Assembly (NCBI GenBank): GCA_013152945.1
Contig: JAADFL010000009.1
Coordinates: 1 to 36,761 of the forward strand
Direction of reading: 5' to 3'
Length of the DNA stretch: 36,761 nucleotides
Source of the DNA: Deltaproteobacteria bacterium
GTDB lineage: Bacteria; Myxococcota_A; JAADFL01
This document shows, piece after piece, positions 21,525 to 33,851 of this stretch (within the stretch, counting starts at the first letter, position 1; every line of letters starts with the position of its first letter). Both the position numbers and the translations under genes were made by a program. The notes beneath the pieces are model-generated. The model was given only the letters and a program-made list of their open reading frames with translations. It was not told where the DNA came from and did no database searches.

Positions 21525-23459
21525 TTATAGCTCGAAAAGCAGGGCCACCGGTTTAGCCTTTGTCACCGGTGCCATGGCCTTTTTGAAAGCCCTGTAGTCT
21601 TTGGGCTCGATCCATCTCTTGCCAAGCATCAACTCCCTTTTCAGAACAATCAAGCCCTTTTTCCGTGTTACCTGTAATCTTGCCGTGCCTCCACCAGCCT
21701 TGTATTCGAAGTTGTGAGGCATCATCCTGATGTGAAAAGAATCAGGATAGTGAACACTTATTTTCAGTTGTTCGAGTGTAGGAAACGGTAAACCAAGGGC
21801 TGTTCTTCTTTCATCTGGCGCGAATATATCCTTCCCAGAAAGTACGGAGCTTTCAAATATAGGCAGGACGATTTTCAAGAAACGGCTGTTTTCAATTATC
21901 AGATGGTCAAGGCCGGCTTCTATTTCAAGACTTATCATGCCTTCATCCATTCTGTTTACCTTGCACTTCTTTACCTTTGACCCGGCCAGGATCGATGAAG
22001 CCATCTTGCTTGCCAATGAGCAAGCGCCCTTGTCGGCCTTTTTAAGGGAATAATAATCAGCATGTGCTCCAGCCAATGTTACAGACACCTTGAAACGGCC
22101 GGCCTTGTTTCTATCCAGGGTGAGATCTATATCGAGAGCGAACAAGTTGTTTCCTGGTTTCAAGGGCTTAATTTTTTCGATTTCACCACTTGCGGGATCG
22201 AATGCCCATAAGCCTGAAAGCAAGGATCTTCGGTCTTTTGAGGAACCGCTCGTTGGTGATATCCAGCCCATCTTGTCGATTGCGATCAGCACCTTGTCGA
22301 ACTGTGATTGGCAAGCCGCTTTTCTGGAAATTTTTCTGTCTCGCGAAACAAGGATGGGACGCGGGTCATAACCCAGCTTTTTCAGCATGGCTGTCAACAA
22401 GACCGCCTTGTCGAGCATTGTCGCATATCCTCTTTCAAGCACAGTATCCGCTGCAACAGGTTCGAGGTACGCGACCAAGGGGCTGTATCCGACATTCGCC
22501 AGGCCGTTTGCCACGAAATCGAGAACCCTCTCCACGGCTTGTGTTGCGGTAGGTTGACCGGAGGCAATCTCCAGGGCCTTTTCGCCTGCACGTCCGCCTT
22601 GGTCCACGGCCTTGTCGAATAAAGAGGTAAACATCCTGCCCAACTCATTCCAGCCGCCTGCGGCGGACACTACAAGCCTTGCCTGACCGGGCGCCAGGCC
22701 GTTGAAGACCCGGTGATGAGATATCTTGTCCTGGTACGCGGGCGGAATATTTTTAAACAACCACTTGATCTTATGAATACCGTCTTTATTCTCGACCCGC
22801 GGCCTTTTGCCGATTTCCAGTTTTGGGGAAGTGCAGCCTACACAATCATACGTAAATTCCGTACCATTCTTGGCATCCACCTGGAGTTCGAATTTGTCGA
22901 TTGTCCCGGGAAGGTCGATGGGTATCTCCTTGCAGAAAGGCAATGCCCGGGGTTTTATGTCCTTTACCTGGTACCCGATACTGCCGACAGCGCCGCGTCC
23001 CAGCCCAAGCAATGTTACAACCGTCTCCCTCATGAAGGAATAACCGGGAGCCTTGTCAAGGCCGAAAGGGATAGTATCGGTGACTGCATTGCAAGAAGAA
23101 CGGACAGGGTTGTGATCCGGACCGCCGCAGGCCTGAACAACTTCCAGCTTTTGACGATCCGCCCTGTGCACTATCCTCGGATCTCCGTACACGTCGAGTG
23201 CATAATCGGTCAAAAACCTGAAGTCCCTCGAAATTTTTACTTCACCCCTGAACTTGTCCAGCACGCTTACATCGACAACCCTGTCGATGATTTCGACATC
23301 ATCGCCCGAAGCACTCAACTTGTAGGAAGCCAACCTTGGAGGTGCATCAAATGCTGGAAGCAGGCTTGTATTTTTCTGGCCGGCCCTGGCAGGAGCACAT
23401 GCCTGGAAAACCGGGATACAAAGGGTTACGACTACCAAGCAGGACTTTGCCTGTTTCAT
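21525..23459 (-). CDS. Transglutaminase-like/DUF3857-type protein without catalytic triad
   Basis: An exported protein of 644 residues with a signal sequence (about 1-26, ending CAPARAG; the cysteine could be lipidated, but FQAC is a poor lipobox). It has the same plan as the protein encoded just upstream: an N-terminal beta-rich part, a transglutaminase-like core and a C-terminal beta domain ending in GKRWIEPKDYRAFKKAM, which matches GKRRITPDKYNDYKRVI in its neighbour. In the core, the segment matching the neighbour's RCGVCKD reads RGYATMLD, so the catalytic Cys is gone. The His position (FNHCVV) reads FDKVLI, and the Asp position (IDPTW) reads ISPTS. It is therefore probably a non-enzymatic partner or a substrate-binding paralogue. 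It overlaps the neighbour by ATGA, implying 1:1 coupled production. Confidence 0.82.
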   Translation of the reverse strand: MKQAKSCLVVVTLCIPVFQACAPARAGQKNTSLLPAFDAPPRLASYKLSASGDDVEIIDRVVDVSVLDKFRGEVKISRDFRFLTDYALDVYGDPRIVHRADRQKLEVVQACGGPDHNPVRSSCNAVTDTIPFGLDKAPGYSFMRETVVTLLGLGRGAVGSIGYQVKDIKPRALPFCKEIPIDLPGTIDKFELQVDAKNGTEFTYDCVGCTSPKLEIGKRPRVENKDGIHKIKWLFKNIPPAYQDKISHHRVFNGLAPGQARLVVSAAGGWNELGRMFTSLFDKAVDQGGRAGEKALEIASGQPTATQAVERVLDFVANGLANVGYSPLVAYLEPVAADTVLERGYATMLDKAVLLTAMLKKLGYDPRPILVSRDRKISRKAACQSQFDKVLIAIDKMGWISPTSGSSKDRRSLLSGLWAFDPASGEIEKIKPLKPGNNLFALDIDLTLDRNKAGRFKVSVTLAGAHADYYSLKKADKGACSLASKMASSILAGSKVKKCKVNRMDEGMISLEIEAGLDHLIIENSRFLKIVLPIFESSVLSGKDIFAPDERRTALGLPFPTLEQLKISVHYPDSFHIRMMPHNFEYKAGGGTARLQVTRKKGLIVLKRELMLGKRWIEPKDYRAFKKAMAPVTKAKPVALLFEL

Positions 23460-25567
23460 GAATCACCCCCGTTTCGAAGTTGACCCGGAATCTTCTCAAC
23501 AAATACATCCATCCGGCCCAGCGCCTTGATCGCATCTATGACACGTTTGTAATCATTGTATTTATCCGGTGTTATGCGTCTTTTCCCGATCTTGATATCT
23601 TCTGAAAAAAACAATGTGCCCCCATCTTGTACCAGACCGGCTGCAAGCGATGCAGAGCCGGAGGTTTCATTCATTGATTTTCTTACACCGGCCATTTCGT
23701 AGCCGGCAGGCAGCTTTATCTTTTCCCTAAAAATCCTGTGCTCCGTCGATCGCAACAGAATGTCACCCTTTCTTTTATCAGTGTTTGCGGCTGTCAGAAA
23801 AAGACCAAGCCTCGAGTAGGTGGCCGGATTTCGAGCCAAGGGCATGTTGAAAATCATAACATGGTCTCCGGTCGAAGCATAACCTGGAACTACGTACGAT
23901 ATTTCAATGGTGAACCTGTGGTGAAGATCGTGAATATCGGACATCTTGTACGACTCGATCTCGGCCAGAGGGGAAATTCCCTGTATCAACCTCTTGACCT
24001 GGCGTCGAAGGTCATGAGCCGGATGGTACACGAAATGATAGCGCAGCCTGGTTTCGAGGTAACCCGTGCCGGAGATGACCATCTTGGACTTTAGGTCCCC
24101 GTTTTCCTTTATCGTGCCGTTTGCCTGAATGACCAACTTATTTGCGTCCGGAGGCAGGGCCGGAATGATTCGTAGTGTGTCGCCTTTGGGCAGGCCTATC
24201 ACGTAATACTGCTCGCGTTCAGCATTGGACCAAAGCTCTCTGGAGAAAGGCGCCCATGTAGGATCTATCATCCTGAACTTGCCGTCTTTTTGTCGAACCG
24301 CAACCACGCAATGATTGAATTGGTCGGCAGGGACCTTCTCAACCCTGGCGCCCGCCATGGTCATTGCGGGGTACACCTCGAAACCCGCGGCCCTGAGCAT
24401 GGTAACAGCCATTCCTGCAATATCCTTGCATACTCCGCATCGATCATGAAACGTCATCGTCCCGGGATGTAGGATATAACCTTCCCCCTTTCCCATGGAT
24501 ATGCCCGAGTACCGGATATTCTGCGCCACCCAGTGTAGAATGGCTCCCATCGCCTCGTCAGAGTTTTTGCCCCTTGTCAACTCCGCTACCTTTTTTCTAA
24601 TCGCAGGGTTTGCATTGAATTGATTTTCATTTACTTGTTGAAACCAGGTTGATTTTTCCTGCCACGAAGGCACGGTGGACATTACGACCTTAGGCAAAGA
24701 ATCAGTGTTGGAGAAGGGTGAAACCGGCTCTTCCTTGTACGGAGGAAGATCTTTGGCCCTGAATGTATACACGACCTTTTGTTTACCCTTGAAAAACACA
24801 CTACTGTCTACAGGCCCCTGGATCTCGAATTGGAGCGGCTTATTTTTCGATATTTCCACTTCGAATATGCTCTCGACAACCGGATACGGCTCTCCTCCGA
24901 AAACGGGCACTGCATAATACTGTCCCCTCATGGGAGGAATGTACATGGATTCGTCCTGCTCTCCTTGGGGCACTTTTTTACTGCAATTGGAAAGCTCTCC
25001 AATTGAGCCTTCTCTGCCTGCCAAATAAGCAATCCTGAAACCCTTTTCATAGGTTACGACCTCGAGGCCGTCGCCTTTTTCCAGCCTGCCTATGGGTAGA
25101 ATCTTCATCCTGGCCCCCCAGTAGATCCACCTCTGCGGTTGAGGCAGATCGATTAAGGCTTGGGGCTTGATTTCCCGGAGGAGCTTTCCCCTGCGATATA
25201 CCCGGGCGACTTTCAGCGTTACAAAGTTCGACATCGGGTCCCAGTCGAAGCGAAGAGATGACAGAAGGGACCCTCCCTTTTCCGTCAGCACCTTGAACAC
25301 TCTTCTCCTTATAAGGTGACCAAGCCCCGAATCTTCCACGACTGTCATGGAACGATCATACACAAGGACTACATCAGCCCCGTTATAGTCCTTTGAAACA
25401 CCGGCCCCGGCCAACAGCTCTTGTGCCCCCGGCTCTTTCTCCACGGGGTATGCTTCCGGTCCTGATGGATCGCCCGGGCTTGGAAACTTGGTGCCTGACG
25501 CAAGTACTCGAGCCTGCAATCCCATGACAGACAAGGCGGCTACAAAGGCAATGGTTAAATATTTCAT
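23456..25567 (-). CDS. Exported transglutaminase-like protein (DUF3857/DUF3858 type)
   Basis: A protein of 703 residues with a Sec signal peptide (MKYLTIAFVAALSVMGLQARVLASG). After an N-terminal DUF3857-like beta region comes a transglutaminase core whose triad is intact: C380 in RCGVCKD, H419 in FNHCVV and D435 in MIDPTW. A C-terminal DUF3858-like domain follows. Proteins of this type are common in Bacteroidetes and deltaproteobacteria, act in the periplasm or outer membrane as peptidases, amidases or cross-linkers, and their substrates are mostly unknown. The open frame runs up to 25663, but ATG 25567 starts a clean signal peptide and has GAGAGGTGA just upstream. It is the first gene of a two-gene operon with its inactive paralogue. 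Confidence 0.88.
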   Translation of the reverse strand: MKYLTIAFVAALSVMGLQARVLASGTKFPSPGDPSGPEAYPVEKEPGAQELLAGAGVSKDYNGADVVLVYDRSMTVVEDSGLGHLIRRRVFKVLTEKGGSLLSSLRFDWDPMSNFVTLKVARVYRRGKLLREIKPQALIDLPQPQRWIYWGARMKILPIGRLEKGDGLEVVTYEKGFRIAYLAGREGSIGELSNCSKKVPQGEQDESMYIPPMRGQYYAVPVFGGEPYPVVESIFEVEISKNKPLQFEIQGPVDSSVFFKGKQKVVYTFRAKDLPPYKEEPVSPFSNTDSLPKVVMSTVPSWQEKSTWFQQVNENQFNANPAIRKKVAELTRGKNSDEAMGAILHWVAQNIRYSGISMGKGEGYILHPGTMTFHDRCGVCKDIAGMAVTMLRAAGFEVYPAMTMAGARVEKVPADQFNHCVVAVRQKDGKFRMIDPTWAPFSRELWSNAEREQYYVIGLPKGDTLRIIPALPPDANKLVIQANGTIKENGDLKSKMVISGTGYLETRLRYHFVYHPAHDLRRQVKRLIQGISPLAEIESYKMSDIHDLHHRFTIEISYVVPGYASTGDHVMIFNMPLARNPATYSRLGLFLTAANTDKRKGDILLRSTEHRIFREKIKLPAGYEMAGVRKSMNETSGSASLAAGLVQDGGTLFFSEDIKIGKRRITPDKYNDYKRVIDAIKALGRMDVFVEKIPGQLRNGGDS

Positions 25568-29819: not shown

Positions 29820-32800
29820 TTATGAATTACTCGGTACGGCGTTCAGGGCTGCTCTGGCCAGGTCACTCTGAAGAAAAGAATTACGCATACCGGGATCAGC
29901 GATTGAATCGGCTATGGTGATAACCATGCTTCTCGATTCATCGAAGAACGTCCGGGCCTTGGTTTGATCATCCATTGCCTGTAAAGCCAATCCCATGTGA
30001 TACAATATTGGCCATCTGATTGTAACATCCACGGAAGCCCGCGCACGTAAGTCAGCGATTTCCAGATGCTTGACAGCCTTTTTCAATAAAGACGGATCCG
30101 ATTTCCTCCGTCCCATGAACAAGTATTGTTGTCCTGCGAGGTGATTTGCCCCGGCCAGATGTTCTGCGGCGGAAAGACTGTCAGCCAACTTGATAACCTC
30201 TTCCAGGCCCGATAAATCGGCCCTGTCCCCCTCTTTTCTGAAAACGATTTGGTACCTGCACAACAATGCATCGAGCTTGGCCATCCGAATACCCAGAATA
30301 TCGGCGAGTTCCAGGCTGTCTTCAATAGTTACAATGGCTTTGTCGAACTTGCCCAGGGCGGTATAGTCACGCGCAAGGCAGCTCAAAAGCCTGCATTTCG
30401 ACTCCTGCTCTCCTATCCAGTCCAGGAGATCCAGGGCCTCCCTGTGATTCCGCATTGCCTGGTTCGGCATGTTACACATCCTGTAAATATCGCCGATGTA
30501 TGACAAGGTCACGGCCGCTGCGGGCCTGACTCCCAGATCTTCTCCCAGCCGGAGCCCCTGCCCGAATGCGAGCAATGCCCTTCCAAGATCACCCTGCCTC
30601 TTGTGACAGGTGCCCAATGAGTTCAAGCATTCTGTTTCCCCGAACTTGTCCCCAGCCTGCCTGTAACTGGAAAGCGCATCCGAATACATGGCGGCGCTTT
30701 TCGCAAGGTCTCCCCTGATGCCCAGTATTCTTGCATTTCTGGAACGTACATCTGCAAGCAGGTCGGGCTTGTTCAGGCCGGCAACAGAATTCAACTCTTT
30801 TCTGGCCGACGAAAGGGCATCTTCCATGCGTCCAAGGCGCATGAAAGCTTCTGTCTGGGCTTTCAGAACCGTCACCAAGGCAAGTTGTTCCCCTGCATTT
30901 TCAGCCTCATTCAGGACCTCCTTGAAGAGAGCGATCACCTCCTGGGCGCGCCCGGACACAGCCATCAAGTGAAGCCGCCTTGTCTTGGCCGTGATCCGTG
31001 ACTTTTCATCACCTGCCTTTACAGCGTATTCTTCCGTATGTTCCAGCAGATGCAATGCCTCCTCGAACCTGGCCAGCTTGGTCAACACGGATGACTTGAG
31101 TAAACCAAGTTCAATGCGGCTGGCAAGAATGTCTTCCCTGGGCACATCCTGTCCCAGGTCCTGCCTCTCGAGCAGGCTGGACGCCAGTTCCAGGTGGTCC
31201 AGGGCTGTAAGATTCGCTCCTATCGAGGCGGCCTTGGAGCCTGCCTCCATTGAATAGGCAAAGGCCCTGTGAGGAAAATTGCCTGCAGCAAGGTGAAAGG
31301 CAAGGAGTTCAGGATGATAACTCTTGCCTGACTTGTTCCTGTCCTCCATAACTCCGGCCAGGCGATCATGTATCCCTTTTTTTTCCGCCAGGAGCAATTC
31401 TTTCGATATGGCCTCTTGTGCCACCGGCCTCGTAAATCCATAAGTCAGTGTCCTTGCCGGAAAAACCTTGTGAATCCAACCGGTCTCCTCAAGAACTTCC
31501 AACCCCTCGAGCAAATCCTTAAGGCGTGTAGACTTGACGACGGAACGTAAAAGACCCATTTCGAAACGGCTGCCTATAACAGAAGCCGACTTCAAGAGTT
31601 CAGCCAATTTCGGATTCAGGTTGTTGAGTCTTGCAGCCACCAGAGCCTCGAGACCATCAGGGACTTCCCTGTACAGGTATTCCATAAATGTCCTGATTTT
31701 CTTCTTGTCCCGGCTTGATGGTATCTTTCCGGTTGCCTGTAACAGCCTTACCAACTCGAGAAGTGCTCCCGGGTTGCCGTGAGCCTTTTCCCAAATTGCA
31801 TCCAGCACCTCCGGGATGGGTTCGCGACCTCCCAGGACGGTCGAAAGCAGAGAAAGTCCATCTTCCTTCTTCTGTACTGTCAGTTTGATCATCGTCCGTC
31901 TTCCGGGTCTTCCAGCCTTAAAATTAAAAGACGGACGAAATGAAGCACACAACAAGACCGGAATTTCCGGGAGCGATCCGGCCATGAACTCCAAGAGTTC
32001 CACCGAGGTCTGATCAGCCCAGTGCAAGTTGTCGAAAACAAGCATGAAGGGTCTGTTTGCGGCCTGGTTTCTAACTATCGCATGTATCAGATCGAATAAG
32101 ATACCCCTTTTTATCCTGGGCTTCAGTGCCTCCAGCGCCGGTTCTCCCCTGGCCCAACCTGCTGCCTGCGCCACCAGGCCGGCCCACCTTCCCAATGGCC
32201 TGGGCATCCTCGACAGGCCGCTCTCCAACTTGTGCATTATGTCTCCGGGAGAATCTCCAGGCTGGAGGGCGAAAACCTCCTTTAAAAACTCCCACCAAGG
32301 CTGGAGAGGCATCAACTTGTTTTCAGGCAGGCATTCCACCCGGCGCCATACTCCGCCTTGTACCTTCCAGTTGGTTATCAGCTTGTCGAGTATCCTGGTT
32401 TTCCCCGTGCCTGCTCCACCTTGGATCAGGAGGGCCTTCGCCTTGCCTTCAAGCACGTATCCAATGGCGTCATTGCATTGCTCGAGCTCTGTTTTTCTTC
32501 CTATTAAAGCCTTCGGCGATCCTGATCGAAGCAAGGTAAGAGTCTCTCCGGGGAATATGGAGGTGTCGATGAGGTGTGCTATACCCTCCACCTGGCCCGG
32601 GCTTGGTGACCTCAATGACAACCCCTTGATCCTTCCAAGTGATACCGAACCGTCCGACAGGATCTGTCCCGGCCTGGATGCCTGTGCCAGTTCGGATGCC
32701 CTGTATACAGCCTCTCCATGTGCCGCGTACCCGCGGATTCTCGGCGTACCCACGGCTCCTCTGAACACTTCACCCTGTGCCATCCCCAGCTTTAAACCTG

Positions 32801-33851
32801 CCGACATGGGCATGGAACTCGTGAAACGCAGCAACTCGATCCCGGTAAGGGCTGCGGCCCTTGCATCTTTTTCTGGATCTTTGGTCGAAAAAAGTATCAC
32901 GGCCTCGGCTCCACCCGGGACCGGTGAAACCTTCTGGAGTATTCCCTGCCGACTCCTGGTAAAATCCACCATGGTTCTGAAGAACAGGTCCAGATCTGAG
33001 CTCAAGCTTCCGGCATCGATATCGAAATCAATTCCGTTTAAAATTACGCATAACACACAGGCCGGCCCATATTCCGGGGGTGGCGGTGAGGAGATGGGGT
33101 TGAACGGATCATTGCCCGGCACATAAGCTGCCAACGCCCTGACGGCCGATTCCAGTTCATCGGTCTCTTTGAGTTCTATGCTTGTCGGTTTGAACCTGGA
33201 CTTTTCAACGAAACGAAGAAGATTGCCTGCAACCTTGAGTTCTCCCCTGTCCCGTGCAACCCTGTAACGTCCTGCAAGCTTGGCTGTTGCACCGGGTCCG
33301 ACTATTACCTCACCCGGGCCGGCCATCTCTGCAGCCTGCATGGCCGCATCCACGACGCTGCCACCGGCGAGAAAAGTAGCGCGAAGTTCGAGGTTGCCAA
33401 GCAGGCCCGTATATATCCTGCCTTCCGAGATTCCGGCCTTACATGCAAAGGATAGCCCTCCCACCGGGCCGGACCAGGAAATAGCAGCGTCCCTTGCAGA
33501 CAAGGCTGCTGCCAGACACCGGGCGGCATTGTCCTGCCCGGTAAAGAGAGCAAGCGCCCATCCACCGCCCAATGATATCACCTCGCCGCCATAATCAAGG
33601 GCTCCTTCTTCGAGCAATTCGGCCAGCATCTCGTCGAGATCTCTTGCCAAGGCAGCCCTTCTTCCCGGTTCAAAAGGAGGTTCATTGCCTTTTGCTCCTT
33701 CGATCCCGGCTTTCAAGGCCATGATGCATCCCTGAACATGCCATCCCTGAGCCGATAATGCACCGAGGTTCGAAAGGTAGTAGCGAAGCAATCTCGGTGG
33801 AAGTCCTGCGGTCAATCCATGTAATATTTCGAATAGTTCTTTGTGATCCAT
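29820..33851 (-). CDS. Double class III cyclase-like / AAA ATPase / TPR protein, soluble-adenylyl-cyclase-like plan
   Basis: A protein of 1343 residues with four parts. Two class III nucleotide-cyclase-like domains come first (about 40-215 and 258-440), then an NTPase domain with Walker A IQGGAGTGKTRIL (near 480) and Walker B MLVFDNLHWADQ (near 605), then a long helical TPR region (about 860-1330, for example NSLGTCHKRQGDLGRALLAF). This order is that of soluble adenylyl cyclase (ADCY10) and of many deltaproteobacterial proteins. Both cyclase domains look inactive: the GD metal site is GGGW in the first, and the usual VNxAxRL block is VVDAAMQAA and AVYRASELA. It may therefore be a nucleotide or bicarbonate sensor scaffold; that is inference. 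GAGGAG precedes ATG 33851. A coding-like short frame ends 2 nt upstream, and the presenilin-like gene follows downstream. Confidence 0.88.
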   Translation of the reverse strand: MDHKELFEILHGLTAGLPPRLLRYYLSNLGALSAQGWHVQGCIMALKAGIEGAKGNEPPFEPGRRAALARDLDEMLAELLEEGALDYGGEVISLGGGWALALFTGQDNAARCLAAALSARDAAISWSGPVGGLSFACKAGISEGRIYTGLLGNLELRATFLAGGSVVDAAMQAAEMAGPGEVIVGPGATAKLAGRYRVARDRGELKVAGNLLRFVEKSRFKPTSIELKETDELESAVRALAAYVPGNDPFNPISSPPPPEYGPACVLCVILNGIDFDIDAGSLSSDLDLFFRTMVDFTRSRQGILQKVSPVPGGAEAVILFSTKDPEKDARAAALTGIELLRFTSSMPMSAGLKLGMAQGEVFRGAVGTPRIRGYAAHGEAVYRASELAQASRPGQILSDGSVSLGRIKGLSLRSPSPGQVEGIAHLIDTSIFPGETLTLLRSGSPKALIGRKTELEQCNDAIGYVLEGKAKALLIQGGAGTGKTRILDKLITNWKVQGGVWRRVECLPENKLMPLQPWWEFLKEVFALQPGDSPGDIMHKLESGLSRMPRPLGRWAGLVAQAAGWARGEPALEALKPRIKRGILFDLIHAIVRNQAANRPFMLVFDNLHWADQTSVELLEFMAGSLPEIPVLLCASFRPSFNFKAGRPGRRTMIKLTVQKKEDGLSLLSTVLGGREPIPEVLDAIWEKAHGNPGALLELVRLLQATGKIPSSRDKKKIRTFMEYLYREVPDGLEALVAARLNNLNPKLAELLKSASVIGSRFEMGLLRSVVKSTRLKDLLEGLEVLEETGWIHKVFPARTLTYGFTRPVAQEAISKELLLAEKKGIHDRLAGVMEDRNKSGKSYHPELLAFHLAAGNFPHRAFAYSMEAGSKAASIGANLTALDHLELASSLLERQDLGQDVPREDILASRIELGLLKSSVLTKLARFEEALHLLEHTEEYAVKAGDEKSRITAKTRRLHLMAVSGRAQEVIALFKEVLNEAENAGEQLALVTVLKAQTEAFMRLGRMEDALSSARKELNSVAGLNKPDLLADVRSRNARILGIRGDLAKSAAMYSDALSSYRQAGDKFGETECLNSLGTCHKRQGDLGRALLAFGQGLRLGEDLGVRPAAAVTLSYIGDIYRMCNMPNQAMRNHREALDLLDWIGEQESKCRLLSCLARDYTALGKFDKAIVTIEDSLELADILGIRMAKLDALLCRYQIVFRKEGDRADLSGLEEVIKLADSLSAAEHLAGANHLAGQQYLFMGRRKSDPSLLKKAVKHLEIADLRARASVDVTIRWPILYHMGLALQAMDDQTKARTFFDESRSMVITIADSIADPGMRNSFLQSDLARAALNAVPSNS

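Follow-up and report, generated by a model that had tools for sequence, protein, structure and literature searches.

Transglutaminase-like cysteine proteases of the HvyA family, which we take to be PF06035, are one point of comparison for a pair of overlapping bacterial genes in which the first encodes an active-looking transglutaminase-like protein (A) and the second a pseudoenzyme partner (B). As far as the accessible parts of the sources go, HvyA and LapG resemble A in being exported, envelope-acting proteins with a Cys-His-Asp transglutaminase-like fold (for HvyA, PMC4241560), but they belong to a different family and no dead paralogue is mentioned for them; HvyA/LapG were therefore rejected as the family of A and B. 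According to the available part of PMC10318531, the human proteins EPB42, FBXO21 and others share with B a transglutaminase fold without the triad, but no gene pairing with an active sister is described for them there. A itself is a DUF3857–Transglut_core protein, with both domains (PF12969 and PF01841) above cut-off. The literature searched, outside which lay most subscription journals, describes neither a function nor a dead-paralogue pairing for the DUF3857 family, makes no mention of DUF3858 or BDI_1141, and, on dead bacterial transglutaminases, gave nothing on the A/B pair; DUF3857 and 3KD4, a solved relative of B, are mentioned in passing in the accessible portions of PMC6341742 and PMC4866520, respectively. 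Enzyme–pseudoenzyme pairs are known as a kind, and the A/B pair is undescribed in that literature. The pair studied here lies in a 36,761-nucleotide stretch of DNA (hereafter the window), contig JAADFL010000009.1 of assembly GCA_013152945.1, from a Deltaproteobacteria bacterium placed in Myxococcota_A. We found that such live–dead pairing is conserved across phyla, and we consider it probable that A and B are subunits of an exported transglutaminase-like complex, in which A would be the catalytic subunit and B a structural, substrate-docking pseudoenzyme.

Both genes are on the reverse strand, as are all the window features given below. Gene A (23456..25567; 703 aa) starts with the ATG at 25567 and ends with the TGA at 23458-23456, while gene B (21525..23459; 644 aa) starts with the ATG at 23459 and stops at 21525. 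The two genes thus have the four bases ATGA in common (23456..23459), as a preliminary description of the locus had pointed out: the stop of A and the start of B overlap there. Shine-Dalgarno-like runs, read from the sequence, precede both genes (GAGAGGTGA for A, GGGGG for B). After a hydrophobic N-terminus, A is composed of a DUF3857 domain, a transglutaminase core and a DUF3858-like domain, and B has the same three-domain fold. The DUF3857 domain of A (24737..25327) is above its Pfam cut-off with 70.7 bits (3.2e-20), and DUF3857 is not listed for B. The transglutaminase core of A (residues 328-436; 24260..24586) matches PF01841 with 35.9 bits (1e-8), above the curated cut-off of 23, and B scores 19.1 bits, below it. 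As for the C-terminal motif that the two proteins had been noted to share, it is Pfam DUF3858, which is above its cut-off of 27 in B (residues 549-642; 21534..21815; 33.6 bits, 4.9e-8) and below it in A (19.7 bits). B relatives at three other loci (L073, L104 and L120) have both DUF3857 and DUF3858 above cut-off. The two proteins are homologous across the core and the C-terminal domain: a single BLASTP comparison aligned 442 columns at E = 1e-4, with 17% of them identical.

At the active site, C380 (24428..24430), H419 (24311..24313) and D435 (24263..24265) of A form the triad originally proposed, and the matching places in B are occupied, again as proposed, by M348 at the Cys position (22416..22418), K389 at the His position (22293..22295) and S401 at the Asp position (22257..22259). 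The catalytic Cys in the transglutaminase fold sits where helix 348-361 of B begins, and M348 is the first residue of that helix. The degenerate core of B (residues 268-432; 22164..22658) has no His at all, and its single Cys, C383, is off the triad position. Judged by its sequence, B is without a catalytic triad, and it belongs to the transglutaminase-like superfamily by fold alone.

The active/inactive pairing, for which a survey of other genomes had been suggested, is widespread. When the GTDB contigs were searched with A (from the window and from genome G033), 252 relatives were found, and the best 80 (L073-L152) are considered here. Their records include, with taxa as deposited, Bacteroidota, Acidobacteria, Deltaproteobacteria/Myxococcota, KSB1, Calditrichaeota, Krumholzibacteria, Eisenbacteria, Zixibacteria, LCP-89, Latescibacteria, Planctomycetota and Gemmatimonadetes metagenome-assembled genomes (MAGs). 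In 75 of the 80 loci the gene immediately downstream of A is B, and one more, L110, has the two fused. Three loci, L075, L094 and L125, lie on contigs that stop short of a full B, with an apparent B start in L075 and L125; the last locus, L150, is weighed below. L125, a MAG contig labeled Marinilabiliales, is peculiar in that the frame of A is apparently shifted just before the B start and the B leader is lipobox-like. Counting the window with these 75, there are 76 pairs, of which 24 could have the 4-base overlap and 4 an overlap of 1 base. The production of A and B in a 1:1 ratio by translational coupling, which the preliminary description had envisaged, can thus be no more than part of the picture, given those 24 pairs and one Bacteroidales genome (G326) that keeps A and B on separate contigs. 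A search of the genome contigs with B alone gave no match. Flanking genes were also clustered for a third partner, and the recurrent neighbors were found mainly within related Bacteroidales or Acidobacteria; since the sole broader neighbor cluster held probable opposite-strand shadow frames, no third partner is claimed.

Across these relatives, A stays live and B stays dead. C/H/D is kept in every one of the 80 A rows, which represent the window and 79 loci (L110 was not included), and the 76 B rows have Cys in none, His in 5 and Asp in 29. The His column of A was partly selected, since His was part of one search pattern out of two, while the Cys column was not selected. The Cys-less state of all 76 B rows shows that the missing Cys of B is not a matter of chance. 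None of the alignments made here restores a Cys-His-Asp triad in B, the outcome that the preliminary description had named as refuting its view, and the enzyme/pseudoenzyme split and its conservation are strongly supported. The two families also differ in where they are conserved. Conservation peaks in the core in A, with 3.19 bits and 78 columns at least 80% conserved, and in the N-domain in B, with 1.85 bits and 24 such columns against 1.54 bits and 4 in the B core. Constraint on B is mainly in its N-terminal β-sandwich (DUF3857) domain and not in the dead pocket.

An AlphaFold2 model of window B, made with 74 B-family rows, has a mean pLDDT of 88.7 and a pTM of 0.88. It matches 3kd4 over almost the full length (Foldseek E 4.3e-39; VIA Z 33.9, rmsd 3.9, 494 residues, 18% identity), and its core (268-432) matches human transglutaminase 3 (TGM3, 1l9m) and 3isr, both with Z 9.3. 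Among all PDB sequences, 3kd4 is the only strong match of the B profile (E 1.2e-118); the A profile, built from two rows, reaches it at 0.028. 3KD4 (BDI_1141 from Parabacteroides distasonis) is, like window B, a full-length member of the B family. It is named "putative protease" in the PDB but is, by sequence, a dead partner: in the B-profile alignment it has Pro at the Cys position (GTPLE), and its His and Asp positions are not His/Asp either. The protease name therefore looks wrong. To judge from the family names ("with PDB structure") and the scores, 3KD4 is apparently the basis of Pfam DUF3857 and DUF3858. Its own relatives are paired as well. At 30 Bacteroidales loci of 3kd4 relatives, Cys is absent from all 30 B members and an upstream A with C/H/D is found in 28, the other two being L248, which has too little upstream sequence, and L268 (the locus of G326), which has none adjacent. 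This set overlaps that of the A relatives (L252 is L120, and other overlaps with L073-L152 were kept in). Relatives of 3KD4 are found in L243-L246, and relatives 43-52% identical to it have an active A upstream. The N-domain of B (residues 52-267; 22659-23306) resembles the M1 aminopeptidase and ribophorin I/OST1 N-terminal domains with Z 8-10, a likeness that may possibly hint at substrate docking.

Co-occurrence was surveyed in 198 genomes of the order Bacteroidales, counting as A-type the matches at E 1e-100 or better and as B-type those at 1e-75 or better. A and B occur together in 52 genomes, A alone in 3 and B alone in none, and 143 have neither (Fisher 1.3e-44, kinship uncorrected). Among the three A-only genomes (G193, G348 and G356), the A match of G356 abuts a contig end, and G193 is the holder of the B fragment that was found, at a contig edge, for the genome of L150. 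In the window's phylum, A-type genes are present in 6 of 188 genomes. In five of these, B is matched with an E value no higher than 1e-110, and in the sixth (G119, L174) a Cys-less B-like gene adjoins A. The other B-profile matches listed for the phylum have E values of about 1e-50 to 1e-63, and those examined proved to be active proteins from other subfamilies.

The L110 locus, a MAG labeled Acidobacteria, holds a natural fusion of A and B in one 1303-residue frame, in which DUF3857, Transglut_core and DUF3858 are each matched twice. At the junction, a Pro/Ala-rich linker replaces the hydrophobic N-terminal leader of B, and in the B half the Cys position is occupied by Pro (GHPLDKA). A fold model was made for a 1200-residue stretch comprising A from its DUF3857 domain onward and B minus its last 41 residues. 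Its mean pLDDT is 81 and its pTM 0.78, above expectation for random placement, which suggests that the two halves are positioned relative to each other. Another alignment for the fusion, A4, was discarded because unpaired B rows had aligned to the A half.

The same arrangement is found in the wider DUF3857 superfamily. DUF3857 is present in 101 of the 188 genomes of the window's phylum, and 80 regions around the matches were taken (the first 40 partly picked for two close matches, the last 40 in list order), of which 77 were left once three duplicates had been removed. Forty-nine regions contain full pairs, 26 of them among the last 40, and all 49 have an active first gene (CHD) and a Cys-less second. 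Two more have a partial second gene, four are cut by the contig or region end, and two are lone dead members; the other 20 are taken up below. For 38 of these 49 pairs, the nearest start gives a 4-base overlap. The window's own genome (G000) has a second pair on contig C49 (L035:3359-10956), consisting of an active TPR–DUF3857–transglutaminase member of 1267 aa followed, with a GTGA overlap, by a Cys-less partner of 1265 aa; TPR repeats are a feature of this pair. Six further pairs from Bacteroidales and the L110 genome (L273-L278) have one live and one dead member each, and in L273, L274, L275 and L278 the order is reversed, with the dead gene first. None of the pairs examined has two triads. 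Within each subfamily, the trees place active and dead members in clades of their own, mostly with good support, and the dead members are therefore not recent decays. As for their origin, the trees differ between one loss and several: in the first, all 39 dead rows are on one side (support 76), while a more careful tree that includes the reversed-order pairs needs 3 changes. On balance, we lean toward the view that bacterial DUF3857-type transglutaminases are mostly asymmetric two-subunit machines, an ancient or repeatedly evolved rule that spans at least four subfamilies and many phyla, allows for fusion and for a reversed gene order, and takes in 3KD4, the family's one crystal structure.

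How the two proteins might work together can be outlined as follows. A and B would be exported, to the periplasm or the surface, as one complex, the envelope location being suggested by hydrophobic N-termini read by eye. A would use Cys-His-Asp chemistry to make or break an amide bond, as a protease, a deamidase or a cross-linker. B would be an old paralogue that lost catalysis and was retained for structure and substrate docking, with an N-domain doing conserved work that is most likely substrate docking or holding A in place. Because the pairing recurs across many bacterial groups and has been fused once, the dead partner is probably a permanent component of the machine. The physical complex postulated in the preliminary description has gained indirect support from the fusion, the co-occurrence, the unlinked case of G326 and the fold model of the fusion. 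Its "obligate" nature is in keeping with this subfamily, with one exception among the loci with room for B, and less so with the wider superfamily. If true, this reading would give a concrete architecture to two large families of unknown function, DUF3857 and DUF3858, would turn 3KD4 from a supposed protease into a dead subunit, and would caution against testing A or B singly.

Several observations weigh against such a complex. L150 has space downstream of A, yet no adjacent B, and 20 of the 77 DUF3857 regions have an active gene for which no dead partner was found, so catalysis does not always need one. The distance matrices of A and B do speak for the pair, their correlation over 72 pairs being r 0.95 (reached in 0 of 2000 permutations), but much of this is expected from shared descent, and the nearest neighbors of A and B agree in only 43 of the 72. 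In addition, the L110 model was trimmed to 1200 residues and judged by pLDDT and pTM, and 14 of the 23 other rows in its alignment are stop-codon read-through constructs.

Some of these points bear on what else B could be. It might be a regulator that holds A inactive, in the manner of a prodomain or inhibitor pseudoenzyme, until released on a signal. The gene overlap and the co-occurrence would fit this too, and a related fold could block a related pocket, but the L110 fusion binds B permanently to A, which is better suited to a permanent subunit and therefore argues against a releasable inhibitor, and the 20 active genes without a partner would be unrestrained. We regard such a regulator as unlikely. 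Less likely still is that B is a separate exported binding protein of the same pathway, co-expressed with A and making no contact with it. Ligand binding could account for the constraint on the N-domain, and the G326 genes show that the two can be unlinked; the fusion and its two-lobe model speak for contact. That B is still an enzyme working through other residues is very improbable. Some dead-type members of other subfamilies do have SHD, THD or AHD at the triad (L177-L179 and L191), keeping His and Asp, but the core of window B has no His, the B-family core has no conserved Cys, His or Ser, and few columns of its pocket vary as much as that of the Cys (0.78 bits). Two adjacent paralogues, one without a triad, could also be taken for A and its decaying tandem duplicate, an explanation that the conservation data refute: active and dead members are in separate well-supported clades, the B frame stays open, and its product structured, across phyla, and B never occurs without A in the 198 Bacteroidales genomes.

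A more specific role for B, as a lipoprotein that anchors A to the membrane, was rejected as a general mechanism. In a simple scan, a lipobox was present in 4 of 76 B N-termini, including window B (VFQAC), and in 4 of 80 A stretches; B is therefore not generally a lipoprotein. A scan for promoters and terminators gave counts close to the shuffled means and was thus uninformative. Elsewhere in the window, 29820-33851 is occupied by a 1343-aa open reading frame, also on the reverse strand, whose translation resembles, as judged by eye, a cyclase/AAA-ATPase/TPR regulator.

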